Below are positions 34,362 through 45,771 of a stretch of DNA of 64,000 bases, piece after piece. A program made the position numbers and the translations under genes. The notes under the pieces are model-generated. The model did no database searches and was not told the origin of the DNA. It saw nothing but the letters and a program-made list of their open reading frames with translations. The number at the start of each line of letters is the position of its first letter. Position 1 is the stretch's first letter. This DNA comes from Hyphomicrobiales bacterium (lineage in GTDB: Bacteria > Pseudomonadota > Alphaproteobacteria > Rhizobiales > Beijerinckiaceae): positions 1,919,001 to 1,983,000 of the forward strand of contig CAKNFJ010000001.1 of the NCBI GenBank assembly GCA_930633495.1, read 5' to 3'.

Positions 34362-36089
34362 TCACCGCCCCCCATGCGGGGCGGGGATGAGCACGGCCGG
34401 CGTCTCGCGCTGCTCGGCCGCGGCCTTCGTCTCGCGCAGGCGACTTTCGCGCAATTCGTTGGCGCTCTCGAGGATCGGATAGGCGATCGAGACGACATGG
34501 CCGTGGATGCGCTTCAGATCCCGGATGATGTCGAGATGGATCGCGCTGGTCTCGATCGATTCCGGCCGGCCGGAGCGCAGGCGCTGGAAGTGGCTGTCCG
34601 TGGCGCGCCGCTCGGCATCGCGCATGGCGGCCTTGTCGGCGAAGAGCTGCCGGGCGAGCACCAGATCGCGCGTGGCGAAGACGTTGAGCGCCAGCGCCAG
34701 CGCCGCAGCGACGCGCTGATGAAAATCGCGGATCTCAGCCAGCCCCTCGGGCGAGAAGGTGTAGCGCTTGCGGATCTTCTTCTCGGCGAGTTCGCGCAGG
34801 TTCTTGTCGATGATGTCGCCGATATGCTCGAGATTGGTGATCAGCGTGATGATCTCGAACAGGCGTCGGCTCTCCTCCTCGGTCAGCTCGTTGCGCGAGA
34901 CCTTGACCAGATAGAGCTTGATCGACTCGTGGATGGTGTCGACGCCGTCATCGGCCTGAGCGATGGCGCGGGAGAGCTTCAGCTCGTCCTTCTCCAGCAG
35001 CGTCATGGTATCGCGCAGCATGCCCTCGACCCGGTCGCCGAGGCGCAGGGCCTCGCGCATGGCGCCGCCGAGCGCCTCGGTCGGGCTGTCGAGCGCGTTG
35101 GGGTCGAGATAGCGCGGCGCCACCGCCTCCGCCTTCTCCTCCTTGCCGGGCATGAAGCGCTCGACCAGCGCCGAGATCGGGCCGACGAAGGGCAGGAAGA
35201 CGATCGCACCGATGACGTTCAGCATGACGTGGAATTCGATGGCGAGCCGGCCATCCGACGGGGACAGGCTCAGCAGCCAGGCAGAGAGCGGGCCGACGAA
35301 GGGCAACACGGCGAGCGCCAGGATCAGGCGAGTTAGCAGATTGCCAACGGCGGCACGGCGCTGGGCGGCGGGCGCGCCGAACTGGTCGAGCACGGGAATC
35401 AGCGCATTTCCGAGATTGGCGCCGATCACCAGCGTCAGGGCCGTCGCCGGCGGGAACAGACCGGAGGCTGCGAAGGTCGCGACCAGCAGGATGATGGCGA
35501 TGCTGGAATGCACGATCCAGGTCGCGGCAATGGCGGCGAGGATGCCAAGCAGCGGCTCGGAACCCATGGCGGCGAGGACGACGCGGAAGGTCGGCGACTG
35601 GGCAAGCGGCGCCGCCGCAGTGTTCAGCTCGATCAGCGAGAGCAAGATGAGGCCGATACCGACCAGGACGCGGCCGATATTGCGCGGACGCTCCATCGCC
35701 TCGCTCGACAGGTACATCGCGACGCCGATCGCGACGCAGAGGCCCCAGAGCCAGCCGAGATCCATCGAGATGACGAACGCCGCGAGCGCTGTGCCGAGAT
35801 TGGCGCCGAGCAGGACGGCGAGCGCCATAGCCGGCACGATCAAGGCCTGTCCGGCGAAGGACGAAACCAGCAGGGTCGTCGCCGTGGAACTCTGCAGCAC
35901 CATGGTCACGATGATGCCACTGCCGAAGGCGGCAAAGCGATTGCGCGTGAAACTCTGCAGCGCCTGCCTGAGCTGCGAGCCGAAAGCGCGCATCGCGCCG
36001 GTTCGGACCAATCTGACCGCCCAGATCAGCAGCGCGACGCCGCCCGCCAGGTGGATCATGATGTTGGTTGCGCTCTCGCCCGTGGCCAT
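34362..36089 (-). CDS. Na/Pi cotransporter family protein with PhoU-like tail
   Basis: 575 residues. The N-terminal half (about 1-310) has eight or so membrane segments in two inverted repeats, with the paired QSSTATTLL-type motif (MVLQSSTATTLLVSS) and VHSSIAIILLVATF in the second half. Residues about 345-545 form a helical PhoU-like domain. Such proteins import phosphate with Na+. A nearby candidate operon may release phosphate from an organic ester, but there is no direct link. The start at 36089 fits the first helix. Confidence 0.9.
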   Translation of the reverse strand: MATGESATNIMIHLAGGVALLIWAVRLVRTGAMRAFGSQLRQALQSFTRNRFAAFGSGIIVTMVLQSSTATTLLVSSFAGQALIVPAMALAVLLGANLGTALAAFVISMDLGWLWGLCVAIGVAMYLSSEAMERPRNIGRVLVGIGLILLSLIELNTAAAPLAQSPTFRVVLAAMGSEPLLGILAAIAATWIVHSSIAIILLVATFAASGLFPPATALTLVIGANLGNALIPVLDQFGAPAAQRRAAVGNLLTRLILALAVLPFVGPLSAWLLSLSPSDGRLAIEFHVMLNVIGAIVFLPFVGPISALVERFMPGKEEKAEAVAPRYLDPNALDSPTEALGGAMREALRLGDRVEGMLRDTMTLLEKDELKLSRAIAQADDGVDTIHESIKLYLVKVSRNELTEEESRRLFEIITLITNLEHIGDIIDKNLRELAEKKIRKRYTFSPEGLAEIRDFHQRVAAALALALNVFATRDLVLARQLFADKAAMRDAERRATDSHFQRLRSGRPESIETSAIHLDIIRDLKRIHGHVVSIAYPILESANELRESRLRETKAAAEQRETPAVLIPAPHGGR

Positions 36090-36244: not shown

Positions 36245-37312
36245 TCAGGCCGGCGGAATCAACGTCACGCCCGATTTCGCGAAGGAAACCCCGACCGGAG
36301 CGCCCTGCTCCAGCAATTCGCGAGCGCCGTATTGCACGACGAAGAGCTCGCCGACCTCGGTGTCGACCATGATATCGAGGTGATTGCCGAGATAGGCGCA
36401 TTTGCGGATCGTGCCCGGCAGCGTGCCGGCCTGTCCCGCCTCTCCGAGGAGCAGCGCCTCAGGGCGGATCGCCGCCTTGGCCGGGCCGGGGCCGAGCCCG
36501 CGCGCGGGCAGCGAAACCGTAGCCGAGCCGATGCCGACATCGGCACGGCCCTCGGCCACCGCCTTCACGGTGACGTCGACCAGATTGGCATCGCCGATGA
36601 AATCCGCGACGAAGGCATTGGACGGCTGCTCGTAGAGGTCGCGCGGAGCGCCCTGCTGGGCGATCTTCGCATTCGACATCACGATGATGCGATCGGAGAC
36701 GGCGAGCGCCTCTTCCTGATCGTGGGTGACATAGGCTACGGTCAGGTTGAGGTCCTGCTGCAGCTCACGGATTTCCTCGCGCACGCGGCGGCGCAGCTTG
36801 GCATCGAGATTGGAGAGCGGTTCGTCGAAAAGCAGCACCTGCGGCTCCAGAACGAGCGCGCGCGCCACCGCGACGCGCTGCTGCTGGCCGCCGGAGAGCT
36901 CTGACGGGTAGCGGTTCTCGAAGCCCTTGAGGCCGACGAGCGCCAGCTTCTCCAGCGCCATCTGCTTCGCCTGCTCCTTGCCGAGCCCCTTCACCGTGGG
37001 ACCATAGGCGGCATTCTCCAGCACGCTCATATGCGGGAAAAGCGCATAGGACTGGAACACCATCGAGACGTCGCGGTCGGCGGCGGAGAGCTTCGTCACG
37101 TCCTTGCCGCCGATCAGGATTTGGCCTTCGCTGGCGATCTCCAGCCCGGCGATCATGCGCAGCGTCGTGGTCTTGCCGCAGCCGGAGGGGCCGAGCAGCG
37201 TGACCAGTTGTCCGGCCTCGATGGTGAAATTGACGTTGTCGACCGCCGTCACCGCGCCATAGCGCATGGATACGTTGCGGAACTCGACGGAAGCGGGCCC
37301 GGCCTTCGTCAA
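36245..37312 (-). CDS. ABC transporter ATP-binding protein, AfuC/FbpC-like
   Basis: 355 residues. Walker A is GPSGCGKTTT, signature ELSGGQQQRVAVARAL, Walker B VLLFDEPLSNLDA, with a C-terminal TOBE domain. The start is a TTG whose bases overlap the permease stop (TTGA), so translation is coupled. The sequence alone would be called a ferric-iron or putrescine/phosphonate-type ATPase; the operon context with an inositol-type dehydrogenase and phosphatase suggests a phosphorylated polyol instead. It is the last gene of the leftward cluster. Confidence 0.88.
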   Translation of the reverse strand: MTKAGPASVEFRNVSMRYGAVTAVDNVNFTIEAGQLVTLLGPSGCGKTTTLRMIAGLEIASEGQILIGGKDVTKLSAADRDVSMVFQSYALFPHMSVLENAAYGPTVKGLGKEQAKQMALEKLALVGLKGFENRYPSELSGGQQQRVAVARALVLEPQVLLFDEPLSNLDAKLRRRVREEIRELQQDLNLTVAYVTHDQEEALAVSDRIIVMSNAKIAQQGAPRDLYEQPSNAFVADFIGDANLVDVTVKAVAEGRADVGIGSATVSLPARGLGPGPAKAAIRPEALLLGEAGQAGTLPGTIRKCAYLGNHLDIMVDTEVGELFVVQYGARELLEQGAPVGVSFAKSGVTLIPPA

Positions 37313-39525
37313 CTTGCTGCTCCTTGGCTGATGGGGTCGGAGACCGAACTGGAAAGCGCCACGGTCTTGCGGCGGCCGAGCTTGCGCTCGCCGACGCCGA
37401 GCTGAATGAGGCCGATGCCGAGCGCCATGAAGACGATCAGCACCGAGGAATAGGCGATGGCGAGGCCGAACTCGCCCGCCTCCACGCGCCCGACGATATA
37501 GGCGGTGGCGAGGTTGTACTCGGCCGAGACCAGGAAGATCACGGCGCTAACCGCCGTCATCGAGCGCACGAAGGAATAGACCAGCGCCGAGACCAGCGCC
37601 GGCTTGAGCAGCGGCAGCACGACGCGCCAGAGCGTGGTGAAGCTGCGGGCGCGCAGCGTCGTCGAGGCCTCGTCCAGGCTCTTGTCGATCTGCGACAGGC
37701 CGGCGATGCCGGAGCGGACGCCGACCGGCATGTTGCGGAAGACGAAGGCGATGACGAGGATCAGCCCGGTGCCGGTGATCTCGATCGGCGGCACGTTGAA
37801 GGCGAGGATATAGGCGACGCCGAGCACCGTGCCGGGAATGGCGAAGGACAGCATCGTCGCGAATTCCAGCGTCGAGCGACCACGGAAACGCTGGCGCGTC
37901 AGCAGATAGGCGGTGAGCAGGCCGATCAGGGCCGTCAAGGGTGCCGAGATCGCCGCGACCTTGACCGTGGTGAAGAAGGACGGCCAGGCCGAGCCCTGGA
38001 AATAGATGCCGTTGCTGAAGTCGATGGCGAAGCCGGTGAGATAGTGCTGCAGGGTGGGCGTGAAGTCGCGGCCCATATTGCGCACGAAGCCGCCGATCAG
38101 GATGACAATGTAGATCACCAGCGTCAGCGCCACCCAAGGCACGATCACCGCCACCGACAGCCAGGTGATGCGGCGCGGCAGCGGCGTCGGCAGGCCGGCA
38201 TCGCCCTTGCCCGTCACGGTCGTGTAGGATTTGCCGCCGAGCCAGCGCTGCTGCACCCAGAAGGCGCCGAGCGTGAAGGCGAGCAGCACGATGGCGAGCA
38301 CCGCCGCCTGGCCCTGATTGTAGGAGGCGCCGACCACCGCGAAGAAGATCTTGGTCGAGAGCACCTCGTAATTGCCGCCCAGCACCAGCGGATTGCCGAA
38401 ATCGGCCATGCTCTCGACGAAGCCGAGCAGGAAGGCGTTGGCGATGCCGGGTTTGAGCAGCGGCCAGGTCACGGTCCGGAAGGTCTGCCAGCGCTTGGCG
38501 CCGAGCGTCTGCGAGGCTTCCTCCAGGCTCGGCGAGATGCCCTGCACCACGCCGATCAGGACGAGGAAGGCGATCGGGGCGAAGGCGAGCACCTGCGCCA
38601 GCAGCACGCCCGGCAGGCCGTAGAGCCAGCGCGAGCGCGGAATGTCGAACCACTCGTAGAGCAGCGTCGAGACCGCGCCGGCGCGGCCGAAGAGCAGGAT
38701 GAGCGCGAGGCCGATGACGAAGGGCGGCGTGATGATCGGCAGCACGGTGAGCGCGCGCATGATGCGCTTGCCCGGCATGCCGGTGCGCAGGATCAGGAGC
38801 GCGCAGGCGAGCCCGAGCAGCGTCGTGATGACGCCGCAGAGCACCGCGAGGATGAGCGTGTTCCAGGCGACGCCGCAATTGGTGTTGCTGGTGATGCAGC
38901 CCAGCCCCCAGATCGAGGAATCGAGGAAGCGCGCGACGAAGGCCGAAAGCGCGAAGGCGCCGTTCTGGTCGACCAGCGCGCTCTTCAGGATGATCGCGAC
39001 CGGGAAGAAGATGAAGACGCCGATCAGCAGGATGATCAGGCCGATCGTCGAGGTGGTGAAGAGGTCGCCGCGGCAGACGCCGCGATAGGCGAGGCCATGG
39101 GCAAGCAGGAAGAGCAGCGAGAGCAGCGTGACGAAGGCGCCGCCGCCGATGCCGCCCTGCGCCGCGCCGGCGCCGCCGAGCAGAGCCGCCAGCCAGCCGA
39201 TGCCCTGGTCCTTCAGCACGATGGCAAAGGCCTGGGCGAAGAAGAGGAGCATGCCGAGGAGACCGGCCCAGAGCAGCACGGATGCCGTCCTCTGGCGATT
39301 TTGGCTGTTCCAGAACAGCGTCGCCGCCGCCAGCGCGACACCCATGGGCAGGAGCCAGGGCGCCTTGCCGGAGAGAGCGAGCGCCAGCGCGCTGCCGGCC
39401 TTGCCGAACGGATACTCGCGGAGCCAGCCCCAATTCGTCAGGCTCATGCCTTCGACGAGGTACCAGGGCATCAGCGCATAGCCGAGCCAGCCGATCAGCA
39501 GCACGATTCTCGTCGCTGGCGCCAT
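37309..39525 (-). CDS. ABC transporter permease with two fused permease domains, AfuB/FbpB-like
   Basis: 738 residues, two BPD-type permease modules in one chain as in FbpB, SfuB and AfuB. EAA-like loops are seen at SLEEASQTLGAKRWQTFRTV in the first half and SLDEASTTLRARSFTTLWRV in the second. The N-terminal ~150 residues add extra membrane helices. The start at 39525 gives a good membrane entry (TRIVLLIGWLGYALMPWYLV). A 180-nt gap with a short palindrome separates it from the binding-protein gene. Confidence 0.9.
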   Translation of the reverse strand: MAPATRIVLLIGWLGYALMPWYLVEGMSLTNWGWLREYPFGKAGSALALALSGKAPWLLPMGVALAAATLFWNSQNRQRTASVLLWAGLLGMLLFFAQAFAIVLKDQGIGWLAALLGGAGAAQGGIGGGAFVTLLSLLFLLAHGLAYRGVCRGDLFTTSTIGLIILLIGVFIFFPVAIILKSALVDQNGAFALSAFVARFLDSSIWGLGCITSNTNCGVAWNTLILAVLCGVITTLLGLACALLILRTGMPGKRIMRALTVLPIITPPFVIGLALILLFGRAGAVSTLLYEWFDIPRSRWLYGLPGVLLAQVLAFAPIAFLVLIGVVQGISPSLEEASQTLGAKRWQTFRTVTWPLLKPGIANAFLLGFVESMADFGNPLVLGGNYEVLSTKIFFAVVGASYNQGQAAVLAIVLLAFTLGAFWVQQRWLGGKSYTTVTGKGDAGLPTPLPRRITWLSVAVIVPWVALTLVIYIVILIGGFVRNMGRDFTPTLQHYLTGFAIDFSNGIYFQGSAWPSFFTTVKVAAISAPLTALIGLLTAYLLTRQRFRGRSTLEFATMLSFAIPGTVLGVAYILAFNVPPIEITGTGLILVIAFVFRNMPVGVRSGIAGLSQIDKSLDEASTTLRARSFTTLWRVVLPLLKPALVSALVYSFVRSMTAVSAVIFLVSAEYNLATAYIVGRVEAGEFGLAIAYSSVLIVFMALGIGLIQLGVGERKLGRRKTVALSSSVSDPISQGAAS

Positions 39526-39615
39526 GGTTGCCCTGTTCCCCTGTCGTAGAGCGGCCCGGACCGGTTCGAGCCGGCCTTCACGGTTTTGAATGCGATGGCG
39601 CGGGAGCCTCACCCC

Positions 39616-39653
39616 GTCATCCCGAACGGAGCGGAGCGGAGACCCGGGATGAC
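39616..39653. repeat. Short palindromic repeat, family C, minimal copy
   Basis: GTCATCCCGAACGGAGCGGA and GACCCGGGATGAC give a compact inverted repeat inside the ABC operon, between the binding-protein and permease genes, the same relative place as 16225-16353 in the other operon. It may stabilise the binding-protein mRNA. Confidence 0.6.
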
Positions 39654-39705
39654 GGCGGAGGTTCGGATAGGAAGCCTCGCGCCGTCATGGCAGGACGGTG
39701 TTGCC

Positions 39706-40743
39706 TTACTTCGGCAGCGCCTTGACTTCCTTGTCCCACTTGGCCAGCAGGCGTGTGCGCTCGGCCGAGGAGCCGTACTTCACGAAGTCGTAGTTGATCA
39801 GCTTCATCTGATCCATTTTCGGCGACTGGGCCGGCACCGGCGCAGCCTTGTTCGACGGGACCTGATAGGACTTGGCCGGGGCGGCGAGCGCCTGGGCGGC
39901 CGGCGTCAGGGCCCAGTCGTAGAACTTCTTGGCGTTCTCGAGATTGCGCGCGCCCTTGACGATCGACATCGAGCCGATCTCGTAGCCGGTGCCCTCGCAG
40001 GGGGCGACCGGCTTGATCGGGTCGCCCTGCACCGCGAAGACCACCGCATCATGGACGAAGACGATGCCGACGGCAGTCTCGCCGAGGCTCGCCGCCTTGG
40101 CCGGCGCGGCGCCCGACTTGGTGTACTGGCTGATGTTCTTGTGGAGCTGCTTCAGGTAGTCGAAGCCCTTCTCCTCCCCCATCAGCTGGACGACGGTGGC
40201 GAGCAGGTTGTAGGCGGTGCCGGACGAGTTCGGGTCGGCGACCTGGACATCGTCCTTGAGCTTGGGATTGAGCAGGTCCGCCCAGCATTTCGGCTCGGGC
40301 AGGCCCTTCGCCTTGATCTGCTCGGTGTTGTAGCCGAAGCCCAGCGCGCCGGCGTAGATGCCGACCGACCGCTGCTTGGCGGCCTTCCACTGATCGAGCG
40401 CCCAGCTGTGCAATTCGGCGTTCTTCGGCGATTCGTATTCGAGCGTCAGCCCCTCCTCCGCCGCCTGGAGATGCGGATCGCCGGTGCCGCCCCACCAGAT
40501 GTCACCGCGCGGATTGGAGGATTCAGCCTTGAGCTGGGCATAGATCTCGCCCGCCGATTTGCGGGTCATGGCGACCTTGATGCCGGTGTCCTTCTCGAAG
40601 GCCGTCGACATGGCGCGGCACCATTCCTCCTGGACGCCGCAATACATGACGAGCGAACCTTGGGCGCGGGCCGGGGTTGCGGCGAAGGCCGCGGTGGCGA
40701 GCGCGGCAAAAAGCCCCGCCTTGAGCCAGGATTTCGATGACAT
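39706..40743 (-). CDS. Periplasmic binding protein, AfuA-like (candidate sugar-phosphate binder)
   Basis: 345 residues with a signal peptide (LFAALATAAFAATPARA) and a type-2 periplasmic fold. It belongs to the ferric-binding/AfuA/PhnS group. The paired tyrosines that hold iron in FbpA are not seen. Instead H231-D232 (VFVHDAV) and E255 (CEGTGYE) are spaced exactly as the H205, D206, E229 trio that I recall contacting the sugar of glucose 6-phosphate in Actinobacillus AfuA. A phosphorylated sugar or cyclitol is therefore a better guess than iron. GGGAGG precedes the ATG. A phosphatase and an inositol-type dehydrogenase lie just upstream. Confidence 0.85.
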   Translation of the reverse strand: MSSKSWLKAGLFAALATAAFAATPARAQGSLVMYCGVQEEWCRAMSTAFEKDTGIKVAMTRKSAGEIYAQLKAESSNPRGDIWWGGTGDPHLQAAEEGLTLEYESPKNAELHSWALDQWKAAKQRSVGIYAGALGFGYNTEQIKAKGLPEPKCWADLLNPKLKDDVQVADPNSSGTAYNLLATVVQLMGEEKGFDYLKQLHKNISQYTKSGAAPAKAASLGETAVGIVFVHDAVVFAVQGDPIKPVAPCEGTGYEIGSMSIVKGARNLENAKKFYDWALTPAAQALAAPAKSYQVPSNKAAPVPAQSPKMDQMKLINYDFVKYGSSAERTRLLAKWDKEVKALPK

Positions 40744-40846
40744 GGTAACCTCCCTGATCGAAGAGACCGGCTTCTGTGTCCGGTTTCCGTGAGTGCTGTG
40801 AAACTGAGACGAACGACGACAAAAGATCAATGCAATACGGCGCCGG

Positions 40847-41629
40847 CTAAGCGATTCCTGTGATCTCCCTGAGCACCGGGGCCAGTTCCGGCGTGCAGCA
40901 CAGGATCGGATTGCCCTTTGCGATTCCCTCGCCGGCGAAGAAATCGTTGATCAAGGCGCCGGCCTCGCCGGCGATGACGATGCCCGCCGCGACGTCCCAG
41001 GCATTGATATGCAGTTCGGCATAGGCGTCACTGCTGCCGCCCGCGACATGGCAAAGGCCGAGCGTGCCCGAGCCGCCGCGCTTCATCGCGGCGCCCGCCG
41101 CATAGCCGCGCTCGATCACCTTGAGATAGTTCGCCGCCGGCACGCGCGTCGACCAGCCGAGCTCGACCGAGGCGCGGGCGATGTCCGCCGCACCCGAGAC
41201 CTTGATCGGATCGCCGTTCAGGGTCGCCCCGGCGCCGCGCCGCGCGGCATAGACCTCGCCCAGCGCCGGCGCCGCCACGACGCCGATCTCCGGCTTGCGG
41301 TTCGCCAGGAAGCCGATCGAGATGCACCAGTTGCGATCGCCATGGGCGAAGTTGGCGGTGCCGTCGATCGGATCAAGGATCCAGACCGCGTCGGAAGCTT
41401 GGCCGCCGCCCTCCTCGCCGATGACGGAGTCGTTCGGGAAGAGCGCGGACAGGCGCTGGCGCAGGAAGTCCTCGACCTTGCCGTCGGCCACCGTCAGCCA
41501 GTCCTGCGCGCCCTTCATCGTGACGCCGAGCGACTCGCGCCTATTGAAATAGCCCAGCGCCAGATGGCTCGCCTCGGCGGCAAGGCCCAACGCCGCGTAA
41601 TAGCGCAGATCGCGTTCCGCCGGGGTCAT
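40847..41629 (-). CDS. Inositol-monophosphatase family phosphatase
   Basis: 260 residues with the full metal-site pattern: E72 in GEEG, D86-x2-D89-G-T in WILDPIDGTANFAHG, and W211-D212 in INAWDVAAG. These Mg2+-dependent enzymes remove phosphate from inositol phosphate, bisphosphonucleotides or similar esters. The ATG overlaps the stop of the upstream iolG-like gene by one base (TGATG). It is followed after 103 nt by the AfuA-like binding protein. In this setting inositol phosphate is an attractive substrate; CysQ-like activity remains possible. Confidence 0.88.
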   Translation of the reverse strand: MTPAERDLRYYAALGLAAEASHLALGYFNRRESLGVTMKGAQDWLTVADGKVEDFLRQRLSALFPNDSVIGEEGGGQASDAVWILDPIDGTANFAHGDRNWCISIGFLANRKPEIGVVAAPALGEVYAARRGAGATLNGDPIKVSGAADIARASVELGWSTRVPAANYLKVIERGYAAGAAMKRGGSGTLGLCHVAGGSSDAYAELHINAWDVAAGIVIAGEAGALINDFFAGEGIAKGNPILCCTPELAPVLREITGIA

Positions 41630-42627
41630 CACTTGCCCCCCAGATCGACGCGGACCGGCTTGCCGGACTGCGCGGATTCGGTCGCGGCATCGGCCAGAAT
41701 CTGCGCCTTCAGCCCGTCGAGGCCGGTCGGCGAAGCCGCGGCCTTGCCCTGGCAGGCCGCGATGAAGGCATCGAGCTCGGCGCGATAGGCCGCGGCATAA
41801 CGCTCCAGGAAGAAATTCTGCACCGGATCGGCCCGGAAGCCCTGCCCCGTCGCGATCTCGACGGTGGTCTCGTGGATGTTGCCCGCGCGCAGCATGCCCT
41901 TGGAGCCGTGCACCTCGATCCGCTGGTCATAGCCGTAGGTTGCGCGGCGGGAATTCGAGATCTGGGCGATCCTGCCCGAAGCCGTCTTCATGACGACGGC
42001 GGCGGTGTCGACGTCGCCGGCCTCGCCGATCGCCTTGTCGACGAGTGCGGAGCCCAGCGCGAAGACCTCGACCGGCTCCTCGGCCAGCAGGAAGCGCGCC
42101 ATGTCGAAGTCATGGATCATCATGTCGCGGAAGAGGCCGCCCGAACGCTTGACGTAGTCGACCGGCGGCGGCGCGGGATCGCGCGAGATCACCGTGACAA
42201 GCTCGATCGCGCCGGCCTCGCCCGCGCGCAGACGCTTCTCCAGCGCCGCGAAATTCGGATCGAAGCGACGGTTGAAGCCGATCATCAGCGGCTTGCCCGA
42301 CTTCTCGACCGTCGCGAGGCAACGGCGGATGCGGGCTGCGTCGAGATCGACCGGCTTCTCGCAGAACACGGCCTTGCCGGCCGAAACCGCCTGCTCGATC
42401 AGGTCGGCATGGGTATCGGTCGGCGTGCAGATCAGCACGGCGTCGATGGCGGCGTCGGCGAGGATCGCCTCGGCGCTTACCGCTTTCGCACCTGCAGCGG
42501 CGGCCAGCGAGGCGGCAGCCTCCGGCATCGCGTCGGTGACGGCGACCAACTCGGCATCGCCGCGCGCCGCGACGTTCAGCCCGTGGATGCGCCCGATGCG
42601 GCCGGCGCCCAGCAATCCGATCTTCAT
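41629..42627 (-). CDS. iolG: Gfo/Idh/MocA oxidoreductase, probable inositol 2-dehydrogenase
   Basis: 332 residues. An N-terminal Rossmann domain (KIGLLGAGRIGRIHGLNVA) is followed by CEKPVDLD (catalytic K91) and DMMIHDFDM (D168, H172), the triad of inositol dehydrogenases with the same Asp-x3-His spacing. It would oxidise myo-inositol, or a related cyclitol or sugar, to the 2-keto compound with NAD+. The start at 42627 gives a clean Rossmann N-terminus. It follows the SDR gene by 61 nt and is translationally coupled to the phosphatase. Substrate is inferred, family certain. Confidence 0.85.
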   Translation of the reverse strand: MKIGLLGAGRIGRIHGLNVAARGDAELVAVTDAMPEAAASLAAAAGAKAVSAEAILADAAIDAVLICTPTDTHADLIEQAVSAGKAVFCEKPVDLDAARIRRCLATVEKSGKPLMIGFNRRFDPNFAALEKRLRAGEAGAIELVTVISRDPAPPPVDYVKRSGGLFRDMMIHDFDMARFLLAEEPVEVFALGSALVDKAIGEAGDVDTAAVVMKTASGRIAQISNSRRATYGYDQRIEVHGSKGMLRAGNIHETTVEIATGQGFRADPVQNFFLERYAAAYRAELDAFIAACQGKAAASPTGLDGLKAQILADAATESAQSGKPVRVDLGGK

Positions 42628-42688
42628 GGTCGTCTTCAGTCCCGTGGTCTCGTCCCGCGGCGGTCCTGCCGCGATAGTGGCCGGGGCG

Positions 42689-43489
42689 CTAGTCGTGCGC
42701 ACCGAGAATCGTCTGGTCGAAATCGATATTGGCGCCGGTCATCAGCCCCGATTCCCCGGAAGCGAGATAGGCGACCGCCTTGGCGACCTCGCGCGGATCG
42801 ATCAGCCGGCCGAAGGGCTGGCCGGCGGAAGCCTCGTCCAGCCAGCCATCCTTGGCGTCGTGACGCAGCTTCATGATCGCATCCTCGCCGGGCGTCGCCA
42901 TCCAGCCGATATTGAGGCCGTTGACGCGGATGCGATGCTTGAGCAGGCCATAGGCCGCATTCTTCGTCAGCACGGCGAGCGCGCCCTTCGAGACGCTGTA
43001 GGCCGAGAGAAAGGGCTGGCCGCCATGGGCCGACATCGACTGGATGTTGACGATGGCGCCTTCGATGCCCTGCCGGCGCATCAGCTCGGCCGAATCCTGG
43101 ATCAGGAAGAACGGCGCGCGCAGATTCACCGCCATGATCCGCTCGTAAAGTATCGGCGACGTGTCGAAGATCGTGCCGCGATCGGTATCGCCCGCCGCGT
43201 TGACGAGGATGTCCAGCCTGCCGAAAGCGCCTTCCGCCGCCGGGACGACCTGCCGCACCGCGTCGAGATCGGCGAGGTCGACCTGGTGGAAGCGAGCCTC
43301 GCAGCCCTCGGCCCGCAGGCTTGCCGCCACAGCCTCGCCGCGGGCAGCGTTTCGCCCGGTCAGCAAGAGGCCGCGAGCGCCGCGCGCCGCAAATTCCCGG
43401 GCGATCGCCTCGCCAAGGCCCTGACTGCCGCCCGTGACGATAGCCGCCTTGCCGTCCAGATCGCGGCCGAAAGCGTTAGGTTGCCGCAA
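42689..43489 (-). CDS. Short-chain dehydrogenase/reductase (SDR)
   Basis: 266 residues, classical SDR. The cofactor motif is VTGGSQGLGEA (18-28), then NAAG (97-100), and the catalytic Y164-x3-K168 in SAYSVSKGA. The start is a TTG with GGGAGG 8 nt upstream; no ATG fits. It is the first gene of a leftward cluster with iolG-like and phosphatase genes and probably oxidises or reduces a polyol or keto-sugar in the same pathway. An IolR-type palindrome lies 48 nt upstream. Confidence 0.87.
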   Translation of the reverse strand: MRQPNAFGRDLDGKAAIVTGGSQGLGEAIAREFAARGARGLLLTGRNAARGEAVAASLRAEGCEARFHQVDLADLDAVRQVVPAAEGAFGRLDILVNAAGDTDRGTIFDTSPILYERIMAVNLRAPFFLIQDSAELMRRQGIEGAIVNIQSMSAHGGQPFLSAYSVSKGALAVLTKNAAYGLLKHRIRVNGLNIGWMATPGEDAIMKLRHDAKDGWLDEASAGQPFGRLIDPREVAKAVAYLASGESGLMTGANIDFDQTILGAHD

Positions 43490-43536: not shown

Positions 43537-43556
43537 AATGGAATAAACATTCCATT
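43537..43556. promoter_or_regulatory. Perfect palindrome matching the IolR site GGAA-N6-TTCC
   Basis: AATGGAATAAACATTCCATT is a perfect 8+4+8 dyad. Its core GGAA-TAAACA-TTCC (43540-43553) is the pattern reported for the RpiR-type inositol repressor IolR in Sinorhizobium. It precedes the SDR-iolG-phosphatase genes. The remaining gap up to 43983 (494 nt in all, 43490-43983) shows no gene and no other strong element. Confidence 0.6.
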
Positions 43557-43983: not shown

Positions 43984-45771
43984 ATGAACGAACAGGAAAT
44001 CCGCGGTCTTGTCGCGGATGTGAAGGAAGGCTCGCTGTCGCGACGCTCCTTCATCCAGAGAATGGCGGCGGTGGGTATCACCGCGCCGATCGCGAGCCAG
44101 ATCCTGGTCTGGAGCGATGTCGCGATGGCGAACGCCACGCTGCCCTACAAGCCGACGAAGGCCGGTGGTGGCGGGCCGCTGAAGATCCTGCTCTGGCAGG
44201 CGCCGACCCTGCTCAACCCGCATTTCGCCTCGGGCACCAAGGACCAGATCGCCTCGCGCGTCTTCTATGAGCCGCTCGCCGGCTGGGACAAGGAAGGCAA
44301 CCTCATCCCGCAGCTCGCCGCCGAGGTTCCGACCAAGGCCAATGGCGGCCTGTCCGCCGACGGCAAGGTCGTGACATGGAAGCTGAAGCCGGGCGTGAAG
44401 TGGCATGACGGCAAGCCGGTTACCGCCGACGACGTCGTCTTCACCTGGGAATATGCCGCCGATCCGGCGACCGCCGCCTATACCTCGGGCTCCTACACCA
44501 ACATCAAGGTCGAGAAGGTCGACGACCTCACCGTCAAGGTGATCTTCCAGGAGCCGACGCCGTTCTGGGCCGACCCCTTCGTCGGCGTCTCCGGCATGAT
44601 CATCCCGAAGCATCATTTCGGCGAGTACAAGGGCGCCAAGTCGCGCGAGGCGCCGGCGAACCTCAAGCCGGTCGGCACCGGAGCCTACAAGTTCGTCGAG
44701 TTCAAGCCGGGCGACATCCTGACCGGCACCCGCAACGAGGACTACCACGTCAAGGTCCAGCCGCATTTCGACACGATCGAACTCAAGGGCGGCGGTGACG
44801 CGGTCTCGGCGGCGCGCGCCGTGCTCCAGACCGGCGAATACGACTATGCCTGGAACCTGCAGGTCGAGGACGAGGTCCTCAAGCGCATGGAGACCGGCGG
44901 TCGCGGCAAGATCAGCGCCGTAGCCTCGGGCGATATCGAGTTCATCATCCTGAACACGACTGATCCGTGGACCGAGGTCGATGGCGAGCGCTCGAGCGTC
45001 AAGACCAAGCATCCGACGCTGTCGGACCCGGCGGTGCGCCAGGCGATCAACCTGCTGATCGACCGCGACTCGATCCAGAAGTTCATCTATGGCCGCGGCG
45101 GCACGGCGACGGCGAGCTTCGTCAACGAGCCCAAGCAGTTCAAGTCGCAGAAGCTCAAATACGAGTTCAACATCGACAAGGCGAACAAGATCCTCGACGA
45201 CGCCGGCTGGAAGAAGGGTGCCGACGGCATCCGCGAGAAGGACGGCAAGAAGCTCAAATACGTCTACCAGACCTCGATCAACGCCCCGCGCCAGAAGACC
45301 CAGGCGATCATCAAGCAGGCCTGCCAGCGCGCCGGCATCGACCTCGAGCTCAAGTCGGTCACCGCTTCGGTGTTCTTCTCGTCGGACGTCGCCAACCCCG
45401 ACACCTACACCAAGCTCTATGTCGACATGGAGATGTACACCACGACTCAGCCGCAGCCCGATCCGGAGCGCTTCCTCAACCAGTTCGTCTCCTGGGAGGT
45501 CGCCAACAAGGAGAACAAGTGGCTGGGACGCAACGTCTCGCGCTACTCGGACCCCGAGGCCGACAAGGCCTACAAGGCCGCCCAGAAGGAGCTCGACCCG
45601 GCCAAGCGCGCCGCGCTGCTGATCAAGGTCAACGAGATCTTCTGCGAGGCCAACGTCATCCTGCCGATCCTGTCGCGCACCCGTGTCGCCGCCTCGGTGA
45701 ACAACCTCTCGCACGACCATTCGGGCTGGGACGTCGATACCTGGAACCTCGCAGCCTGGTATCGCAGCTAG
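43984..45771 (+). CDS. Peptide-type ABC transporter substrate-binding protein, Tat-exported
   Basis: 595 residues, SBP family 5. The N-terminus carries a twin-arginine signal, SRRSFIQRMAAVGI (R20-R21), instead of a Sec leader, suggesting export in folded form. Family motifs follow: WKLKPGVKWHDGKPVTADDV and NLLIDRDSIQKFIYG. GGAGG precedes the ATG at 43984; upstream in-frame codons are not plausible. It heads an operon of two permeases and a fused ATPase. Ligand unknown. Confidence 0.93.
   Translation: MNEQEIRGLVADVKEGSLSRRSFIQRMAAVGITAPIASQILVWSDVAMANATLPYKPTKAGGGGPLKILLWQAPTLLNPHFASGTKDQIASRVFYEPLAGWDKEGNLIPQLAAEVPTKANGGLSADGKVVTWKLKPGVKWHDGKPVTADDVVFTWEYAADPATAAYTSGSYTNIKVEKVDDLTVKVIFQEPTPFWADPFVGVSGMIIPKHHFGEYKGAKSREAPANLKPVGTGAYKFVEFKPGDILTGTRNEDYHVKVQPHFDTIELKGGGDAVSAARAVLQTGEYDYAWNLQVEDEVLKRMETGGRGKISAVASGDIEFIILNTTDPWTEVDGERSSVKTKHPTLSDPAVRQAINLLIDRDSIQKFIYGRGGTATASFVNEPKQFKSQKLKYEFNIDKANKILDDAGWKKGADGIREKDGKKLKYVYQTSINAPRQKTQAIIKQACQRAGIDLELKSVTASVFFSSDVANPDTYTKLYVDMEMYTTTQPQPDPERFLNQFVSWEVANKENKWLGRNVSRYSDPEADKAYKAAQKELDPAKRAALLIKVNEIFCEANVILPILSRTRVAASVNNLSHDHSGWDVDTWNLAAWYRS

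Follow-up and report, generated by a model that had tools for sequence, protein, structure and literature searches.

A predicted inositol-phosphate utilisation operon with an AfuA-family ABC importer and an IolR-type operator in a Hyphomicrobiales bacterium

Bacteria are generally thought to dismantle inositol phosphates outside the cell. Among the periplasmic binding proteins of ABC importers, the ferric protein FbpA binds iron through an adjacent tyrosine pair, Y195/Y196, and mutants of this pair are named in the titles of PDB entries. The AfuABC system of Actinobacillus and Citrobacter was described instead as an importer of hexose and heptose phosphates, and the replacement of H205, D206 and E229 of AfuA by alanine abolished the binding of glucose 6-phosphate (G6P) (PMC4546632; this source, PMC2597717 and PMC8427247 are cited here from excerpts of their text). 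On the side of inositol catabolism, a GGAA-N6-TTCC palindrome was defined in alphaproteobacterial inositol promoters (Boutte et al., PMC2597717), and mutating one copy of it in Caulobacter raised the activity of the iolC promoter; the same excerpts contain the speculation that the HlyB-family transporter CC1314 might carry derivatised inositols such as inositol phosphates. Here we describe an operon that joins components of both kinds. It lies in a window of 64,000 nucleotides, the whole stretch of DNA that was analysed, from a Hyphomicrobiales bacterium of Bosea type (contig CAKNFJ010000001.1, positions 1,919,001 to 1,983,000), and comprises six minus-strand genes (36245-43489) in the order SDR-family oxidoreductase, inositol 2-dehydrogenase IolG, inositol-monophosphatase-family phosphatase (IMPase), AfuA-family binding protein, permease and ATPase. 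We read it, with a probability of about 0.74, as a unit for the use of inositol phosphate that is controlled by an IolR-type regulator and in which the importer feeds the IMPase and IolG.

All six open reading frames (ORFs) listed by a first-pass annotation of the window were present, and the Pfam and NCBIfam families agreed with it (Table 1). Two gene pairs, IolG/IMPase and permease/ATPase, touched or overlapped. The coordinates given for IolG, the IMPase, the binding protein and the permease correspond to trimmed starts, and the mechanical ORFs extended further upstream. The dehydrogenase that had been called iolG-like passed the curated cut-off for inositol 2-dehydrogenase (449.8 bits against 355 for TIGR04380) and matched the inositol 2-dehydrogenase structure 4hkt with 404 bits. 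The SDR, which frequently adjoins IolG in the loci of relatives, passed NF004847 (386.7 bits, cut-off 240) and had 4nim as its best PDB match; these two proteins were the ones above curated cut-offs among the NCBIfam matches listed. The predicted inositol-monophosphatase-like enzyme was likewise recovered, with 188.5 bits for PF00459 (cut-off 27), and its translation held GEE, DPIDGT and WDVAAG, in which we take GEE, DPIDGT and WD to be the metal motifs of the family. It fell below the NCBIfam equivalog cut-offs for HisN (139.7 against 275.15 bits), the inositol-1-monophosphatase model PRK10757 (116.4 against 332) and CysQ (98.3 against 228.8), and these cut-offs exclude it as an orthologue of SuhB, HisN or CysQ.

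The binding protein, whose N-terminus appeared signal peptide-like by eye, is by its sequence and its structural model a member of the AfuA (sugar-phosphate) family. The three nearest PDB sequences were 8x1a (the Vibrio G6P-binding protein), AfuA and P5PA, with 261-310 bits, whereas the next scored 46 bits, and the same three were the nearest structures when the model was compared. The identity to AfuA was 46% in the structural alignment, and the nearest named copy, from Bosea thiooxidans, was 98% identical. Residues H231, D232 and E255, which had been proposed to stand at the spacing of the AfuA contacts, aligned with H205, D206 and E229; Y103 and Q269 (AfuA numbering, as for the following residues) were also kept. 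The phosphate-site residues S148-T150 and S184-G185 were kept, including the phosphate contact T150, whereas S37 was replaced by Ala, with Ser in many of the relatives. In all, the pocket differed from AfuA by T11Q, G36S, S37A and I186A. At the positions T11, G36 and I/V186, a residue set picked in this analysis and not from the literature, the window protein had Q, S and A and so lacked the AfuA type. No Tyr-Tyr dipeptide was found anywhere in the protein, as the first-pass annotation had noted, and the comparison that it had suggested placed AfuA nearer than FbpA: ferric binding proteins shared 16-22% identity with the window protein and stood clearly behind AfuA in both structure comparisons.

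A palindrome, GGAATGTTTATTCC, preceded the operon by about 50 bp, counted from the start of its first gene, the SDR gene. The window contained three copies of the form GGAA-N6-TTCC, where 0.68 were expected; the strict form GGAAT-N4-ATTCC was found at seven places in 5.94 Mb, and the reversed control gave no match. Only two of these seven strict sites were in promoter position, that of the operon and that of iolC, and the other five were well inside ORFs called by the scripts, which used a simple heuristic based on GC content at the third codon position (GC3). The iolC site, which overlapped the final bases of the RpiR ORF, began about 30 bp ahead of the called start of iolC. Among relatives, 36 of 79 loci carried GGAA-N6-TTCC no further than 260 bp from the first gene, where 0.003 were expected per locus; by first gene, it was present in 29/32 operons that began with SDR, 2/5 with IolG and 2/5 with the binding protein. 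Two Bosea-like loci (L012 and L013, the latter at a contig edge) had no SDR, IolG or IMPase nearby and still carried the motif about 200 bp before the binding protein. The motif upstream of the first gene, by which we judged membership of the IolR regulon, thus places the operon among the candidates, and its sequence suggests that IolR would bind the palindrome and regulate the operon. A scan for sigma-70 promoters gave no site against 0.7 expected, and terminator-like sites numbered seven against 5.0 expected.

Table 1. Coordinates in the window of the operon genes, the operator and the neighbouring genes
Feature	Position	Strand	Basis or remark
SDR-family oxidoreductase	42689..43489	-	NF004847 / PRK06198, PF00106/PF13561; TTG start as listed, real start unsure
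IolG, inositol 2-dehydrogenase	41629..42627	-	GFO_IDH_MocA, TIGR04380, PDB 4hkt
Inositol-monophosphatase-family phosphatase (IMPase)	40847..41629	-	Inositol_P PF00459 and motifs
AfuA-family periplasmic binding protein, 345 aa	39706..40743	-	SBP_bac_6
Fused two-domain ABC permease, 738 aa	37309..39525	-	two BPD_transp_1 stretches; Pfam, NCBIfam
ABC transporter ATPase	36245..37312	-	ABC_tran and TOBE_2; TTG start; Pfam, NCBIfam
Na/Pi-cotransporter-family protein with PhoU domains	34362..36089	-	PF02690 and PF01895
IolR-type operator palindrome GGAATGTTTATTCC	43540..43553	-	exact GGAA-N6-TTCC match
SBP_bac_5 oligopeptide-type binding-protein gene	43987-45768	+	divergent, start just upstream of the operon

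The block recurred in relatives more than chance would give. The named loci were the best 80 of 271 relatives and highly redundant, and the weight is therefore carried by even draws of genomes; neighbours were searched in fetched stretches of about 20 kb, less at contig ends, and a locus had full context when at least 6.5 kb was available on both sides. Of the 80 named loci, 76 had an IMPase gene no more than 6.5 kb from that of the binding protein. A consistent lack of the phosphatase and dehydrogenase genes in homologous operons, which the first-pass annotation had named as the finding that would count against its proposal, was accordingly not seen for the phosphatase, whereas IolG was absent nearby in many loci, mostly of Microvirga. 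When the binding proteins were sorted by pocket, 97 of the 105 loci of the S36 type (Ser at AfuA position 36) with full context had an IMPase within 6.5 kb, as did 30 of the 36 S36 genomes of the even draws. The AfuA type (T11, G36) had none within that distance in nine loci with full context or in 12 in all, and the fetched stretches of these 12 held no iol gene. The position of the IMPase varied by lineage, either upstream of the binding protein or downstream of the ATPase, the latter also in a genome from another class (G634, L220), which shows that the pairing with the transporter was kept through rearrangement.

The pocket type was also correlated with the presence of IolD in the genome. 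In an even class draw of 289 genomes, in which the binding protein was called at an E-value of 1e-60 or better, 22 carried the binding protein and 36 carried IolD. With the host genome excluded, IolD was present in 16 of 21 genomes with the binding protein and in 19 of 267 without it (Fisher p about 1e-12). IolD-positive genomes of this draw carried binding proteins with S36 and Ser or Ala at position 37, and this signature was fixed as a prediction before further genomes were drawn. In the held-out set, made of phylum and order draws from which genomes already used were left out, IolD was found in 28 of 32 signature-positive genomes against 4 of 17 signature-negative ones (p 1.4e-5); shared ancestry of the genomes means that such p-values overstate independence. 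Four signature-positive genomes counted as misses (G561, G736, G775 and G677). In G775, however, a truncated IolD and an IolC stood close to the binding protein, where the contig begins, and the contig of G736 was 3.6 kb long. Five second copies of the binding protein in signature-negative genomes were signature-negative too and left the counts unchanged.

Direct linkage to inositol genes was seen in many lineages. IolB, C, D or E lay in the fetched stretch of 30 of the 80 named loci, among them loci of Bosea, Bradyrhizobium, Chelatococcus, Beijerinckiaceae, Microvirga massiliensis and unclassified Alphaproteobacteria, and iol genes were found in 6 of the 21 class-draw genomes carrying the binding protein, the host again excluded. 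On a quick tree with support from the Shimodaira-Hasegawa-like approximate likelihood ratio test (SH-aLRT) only, the iol-linked rows were scattered over several separate branches. The arrangement SDR-IolG / IolD-IolE-IolB-IolC-IMPase-SBP-permease-ATPase (SBP, substrate-binding protein) was that of locus L085, in which IolG, IolD, IolE and the IolC domain exceeded their curated cut-offs and IolB did not (108.5 against 205 bits). The operon of the window does not by itself complete inositol catabolism: the host genome has iolC and iolD (both identified with curated models), together with iolE and a weak match to iolB, at about 3.66 Mb, where they are accompanied by an RpiR/SIS regulator and a TRAP transporter. 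The latter (DctP and a DctQ-DctM fusion; L123:13322-16376) may import free inositol or a related polyol.

In the pathway that we propose, the AfuA-family protein would capture an inositol phosphate in the periplasm, with His231, Asp232 and Glu255 contacting the ring and a site lined by Ser, Gly and Thr holding the phosphate, and the fused permease and the ATPase would import it. The IMPase would then strip the phosphate in the cytoplasm, IolG would oxidise the freed inositol at C2, and the products of the iolC/D/E/B genes at about 3.66 Mb would finish the breakdown, with the SDR as a presumed accessory of inositol metabolism that may carry out the second redox step put forward in the first-pass annotation. 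The downstream Na/Pi-type protein may possibly export or otherwise handle the phosphate set free. The scheme of import, dephosphorylation and oxidation by IolG, already suggested by the first-pass annotation, is supported by the iol linkage, the linkage of pocket and IMPase, the IolR-type operator and the structural proximity to AfuA. The ligand is probably an inositol phosphate, most likely a monophosphate.

Several observations weigh against this proposal. IMPase-family enzymes act on a broad range of phosphomonoester substrates, and the host genome encodes 11 of them. The operator was found in only 3 of 37 operons that started with the IMPase gene, and 37 of the 80 named loci, mostly of Microvirga, had no iolB/C/D/E, IolG or linked SDR in the fetched stretch. 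No IMPase lay within 6.5 kb in 6 of the 36 drawn S36 genomes, and one was found near 6 of 15 binding proteins with G36 but other residues and 5 of 23 of other types, although most of these belonged to a cluster shared with an S36 copy, the rest being a 29%-identical gene in L141. Four order-draw proteins read late had S36 and T37 and were thus signature-negative in IolD-positive genomes; with them, the held-out counts became 28/32 against 8/21 (p 2.6e-4). Four AfuA-type genomes carried IolD elsewhere. The signature-positive protein of G561 (L223), in a genome without an IolD match, was found beside a phosphonate-type ABC transporter, and the signature-positive system may there serve the use of the organophosphate for phosphorus only. 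The S36 class was not one clean clade and needed five changes on the tree, so that a single origin of the signature is unsupported and the signature was treated as a correlate, not as a clade. Finally, the S37A mutation of AfuA lowered the affinity for G6P about 40-fold (PMC4546632), and the window protein has Ala at this position.

Other ligands were considered for the importer. A hexose- or heptose-phosphate importer like AfuABC, with the IMPase as a general sugar phosphatase and IolG as a coincidental neighbour, would suit the 46% identity, the same ring contacts and the conserved Y103 and Q269. We regard it as unlikely, since the pocket differs at T11, G36 and I186, the 12 AfuA-type loci lack an IMPase within 6.5 kb and iol genes in the fetched stretch, G6P and F6P (fructose 6-phosphate) can be used without dephosphorylation, and the operator belongs to inositol genes. 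Much the same doubt attaches to a phosphodiester ligand such as glycerophosphoinositol, which would be cut by another enzyme after import and before the IMPase acts. Compounds of this type derive from eukaryotic membranes, and such a ligand would accord with the links to iol genes and IMPase; however, we noticed no phosphodiesterase among the genes of the conserved block, in which no search was aimed at one, and AfuA closes on a terminal phosphate according to the excerpts of PMC4546632. That the transporter imports free inositol while the IMPase serves an internal inositol phosphate would be compatible with the IolR-type operator and the iol linkage taken alone, but appears quite improbable: glucose and fructose were not bound by AfuA (PMC4546632), S148-T150 and S184-G185 of the phosphate site are conserved, many loci with no iol genes in their vicinity keep an IMPase close to the transporter, and free inositol has a known importer type, IbpA-IatAP (PMC2597717).

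The first-pass annotation had expected routine annotation to call the system a ferric iron importer, and the sources indeed name the binding protein "iron(III) transport system substrate-binding protein"; the ATPase was closest to a ferric model, yet below its cut-off (381.5 against 496 bits). With no Tyr-Tyr pair, 16-22% identity to ferric proteins, structural comparisons clearly favouring AfuA, and neighbours and an operator that concern inositol, iron is a very improbable ligand and this reading was rejected. An importer of 2-aminoethylphosphonate of the PhnS2 type was rejected as well and seems hardly credible: TIGR03261 was the top NCBIfam model of the binding protein, but the score of 221.1 bits is far under the cut-off of 392.75, and no phosphonate-degrading gene is among the six.

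Around the operon, the gene of the Na/Pi-type protein follows directly downstream of the ATPase gene on the same strand. Such a gene lay within 6.5 kb of the transporter in 18 of 126 loci with the same pocket, mostly Bosea-like, the others including Chelatococcus albus (L043) and two genomes from another family (L226 and L258). Further variants of the binding protein were observed. A related branch (L211, L212, L213 and L214), from IolD-positive genomes, lacked a nearby IMPase and had Glu at the position of AfuA residue 11; three of its four members also had H103 and N269, and the branch possibly has another ligand. Six loci (L065:6037, L066:13342, L125:12699, L126:14054, L135:10997 and L079:13239) encoded an additional binding protein, with a different pocket type, between the permease and the ATPase, that of L079 having Phe-Ala instead of the H205-D206 pair; one pump may serve two ligands in such loci. 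The host itself encodes a paralogous binding protein outside the window (814920-815933 on contig C1; L113, L122), 61% identical to the window protein, with a PfkB kinase and a different ABC transporter among its neighbours. No IMPase, IolG or matching permease was found in its fetched stretch, and it is therefore uninformative on the ligand.

The part families and the AfuABC-like transporter are known, and what is new is a variant of them, in its predicted ligand, its conserved pairing with an IMPase and its link to iol genes. No description of a bacterial inositol-phosphate importer or of this operon was found in the open-licence literature, to which the search was confined, in agreement with the first-pass annotation, which knew of no operon of this composition. 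More broadly, we favour, with some reserve, the view that the ABC importers labelled "iron(III)" include a large branch, present across Alphaproteobacteria and in at least one genome of another class, of dedicated importers of intact inositol phosphates, tied to inositol catabolism by the co-inherited phosphatase and, in Bosea-like lineages, by the IolR operator. If true, this would be a widespread and so far unassigned bacterial route to a major soil phosphorus compound, by which soil and plant-associated bacteria would import the intact molecule and obtain both its carbon and its phosphorus where competitors have no access, and the annotation of many so-called iron transporters would be corrected. 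The proposal yields directly testable predictions on the ligand, the regulator and the residues.

Compared with described systems, the operon is closest to AfuABC (PMC4546632) and Vibrio VcA0625 (8x1a), with which it shares the fold and family of the binding protein, the ring contacts and most of the phosphate site. It also shares with AfuABC the unit of binding protein, permease and ATPase and the old misannotation as ferric; it differs in the four pocket substitutions, in its partners IMPase, IolG and SDR, in the IolR-type operator and in the predicted ligand. The pyridoxal-5-phosphate importer P5PA/P5PB (PMC8427247) is a second proof that relatives of AfuA gained new phosphorylated ligands, but in P5PA the positions of D206 and E229 are both occupied by Ala, whereas the window protein keeps the two acidic residues. 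FbpA-type proteins are distant in identity and differ by their Tyr-Tyr pair. The IbpA-IatA-IatP and IolR module (PMC2597717) serves the same catabolic pathway and has the same GGAA-N6-TTCC operator, and an RpiR/SIS-type regulator gene stands at the host iol locus too; that module, however, relies on another type of transporter, which imports free inositol, and the excerpts of its description mention no phosphatase, whereas in the operon described here an IMPase gene stands between those of the predicted importer and IolG.

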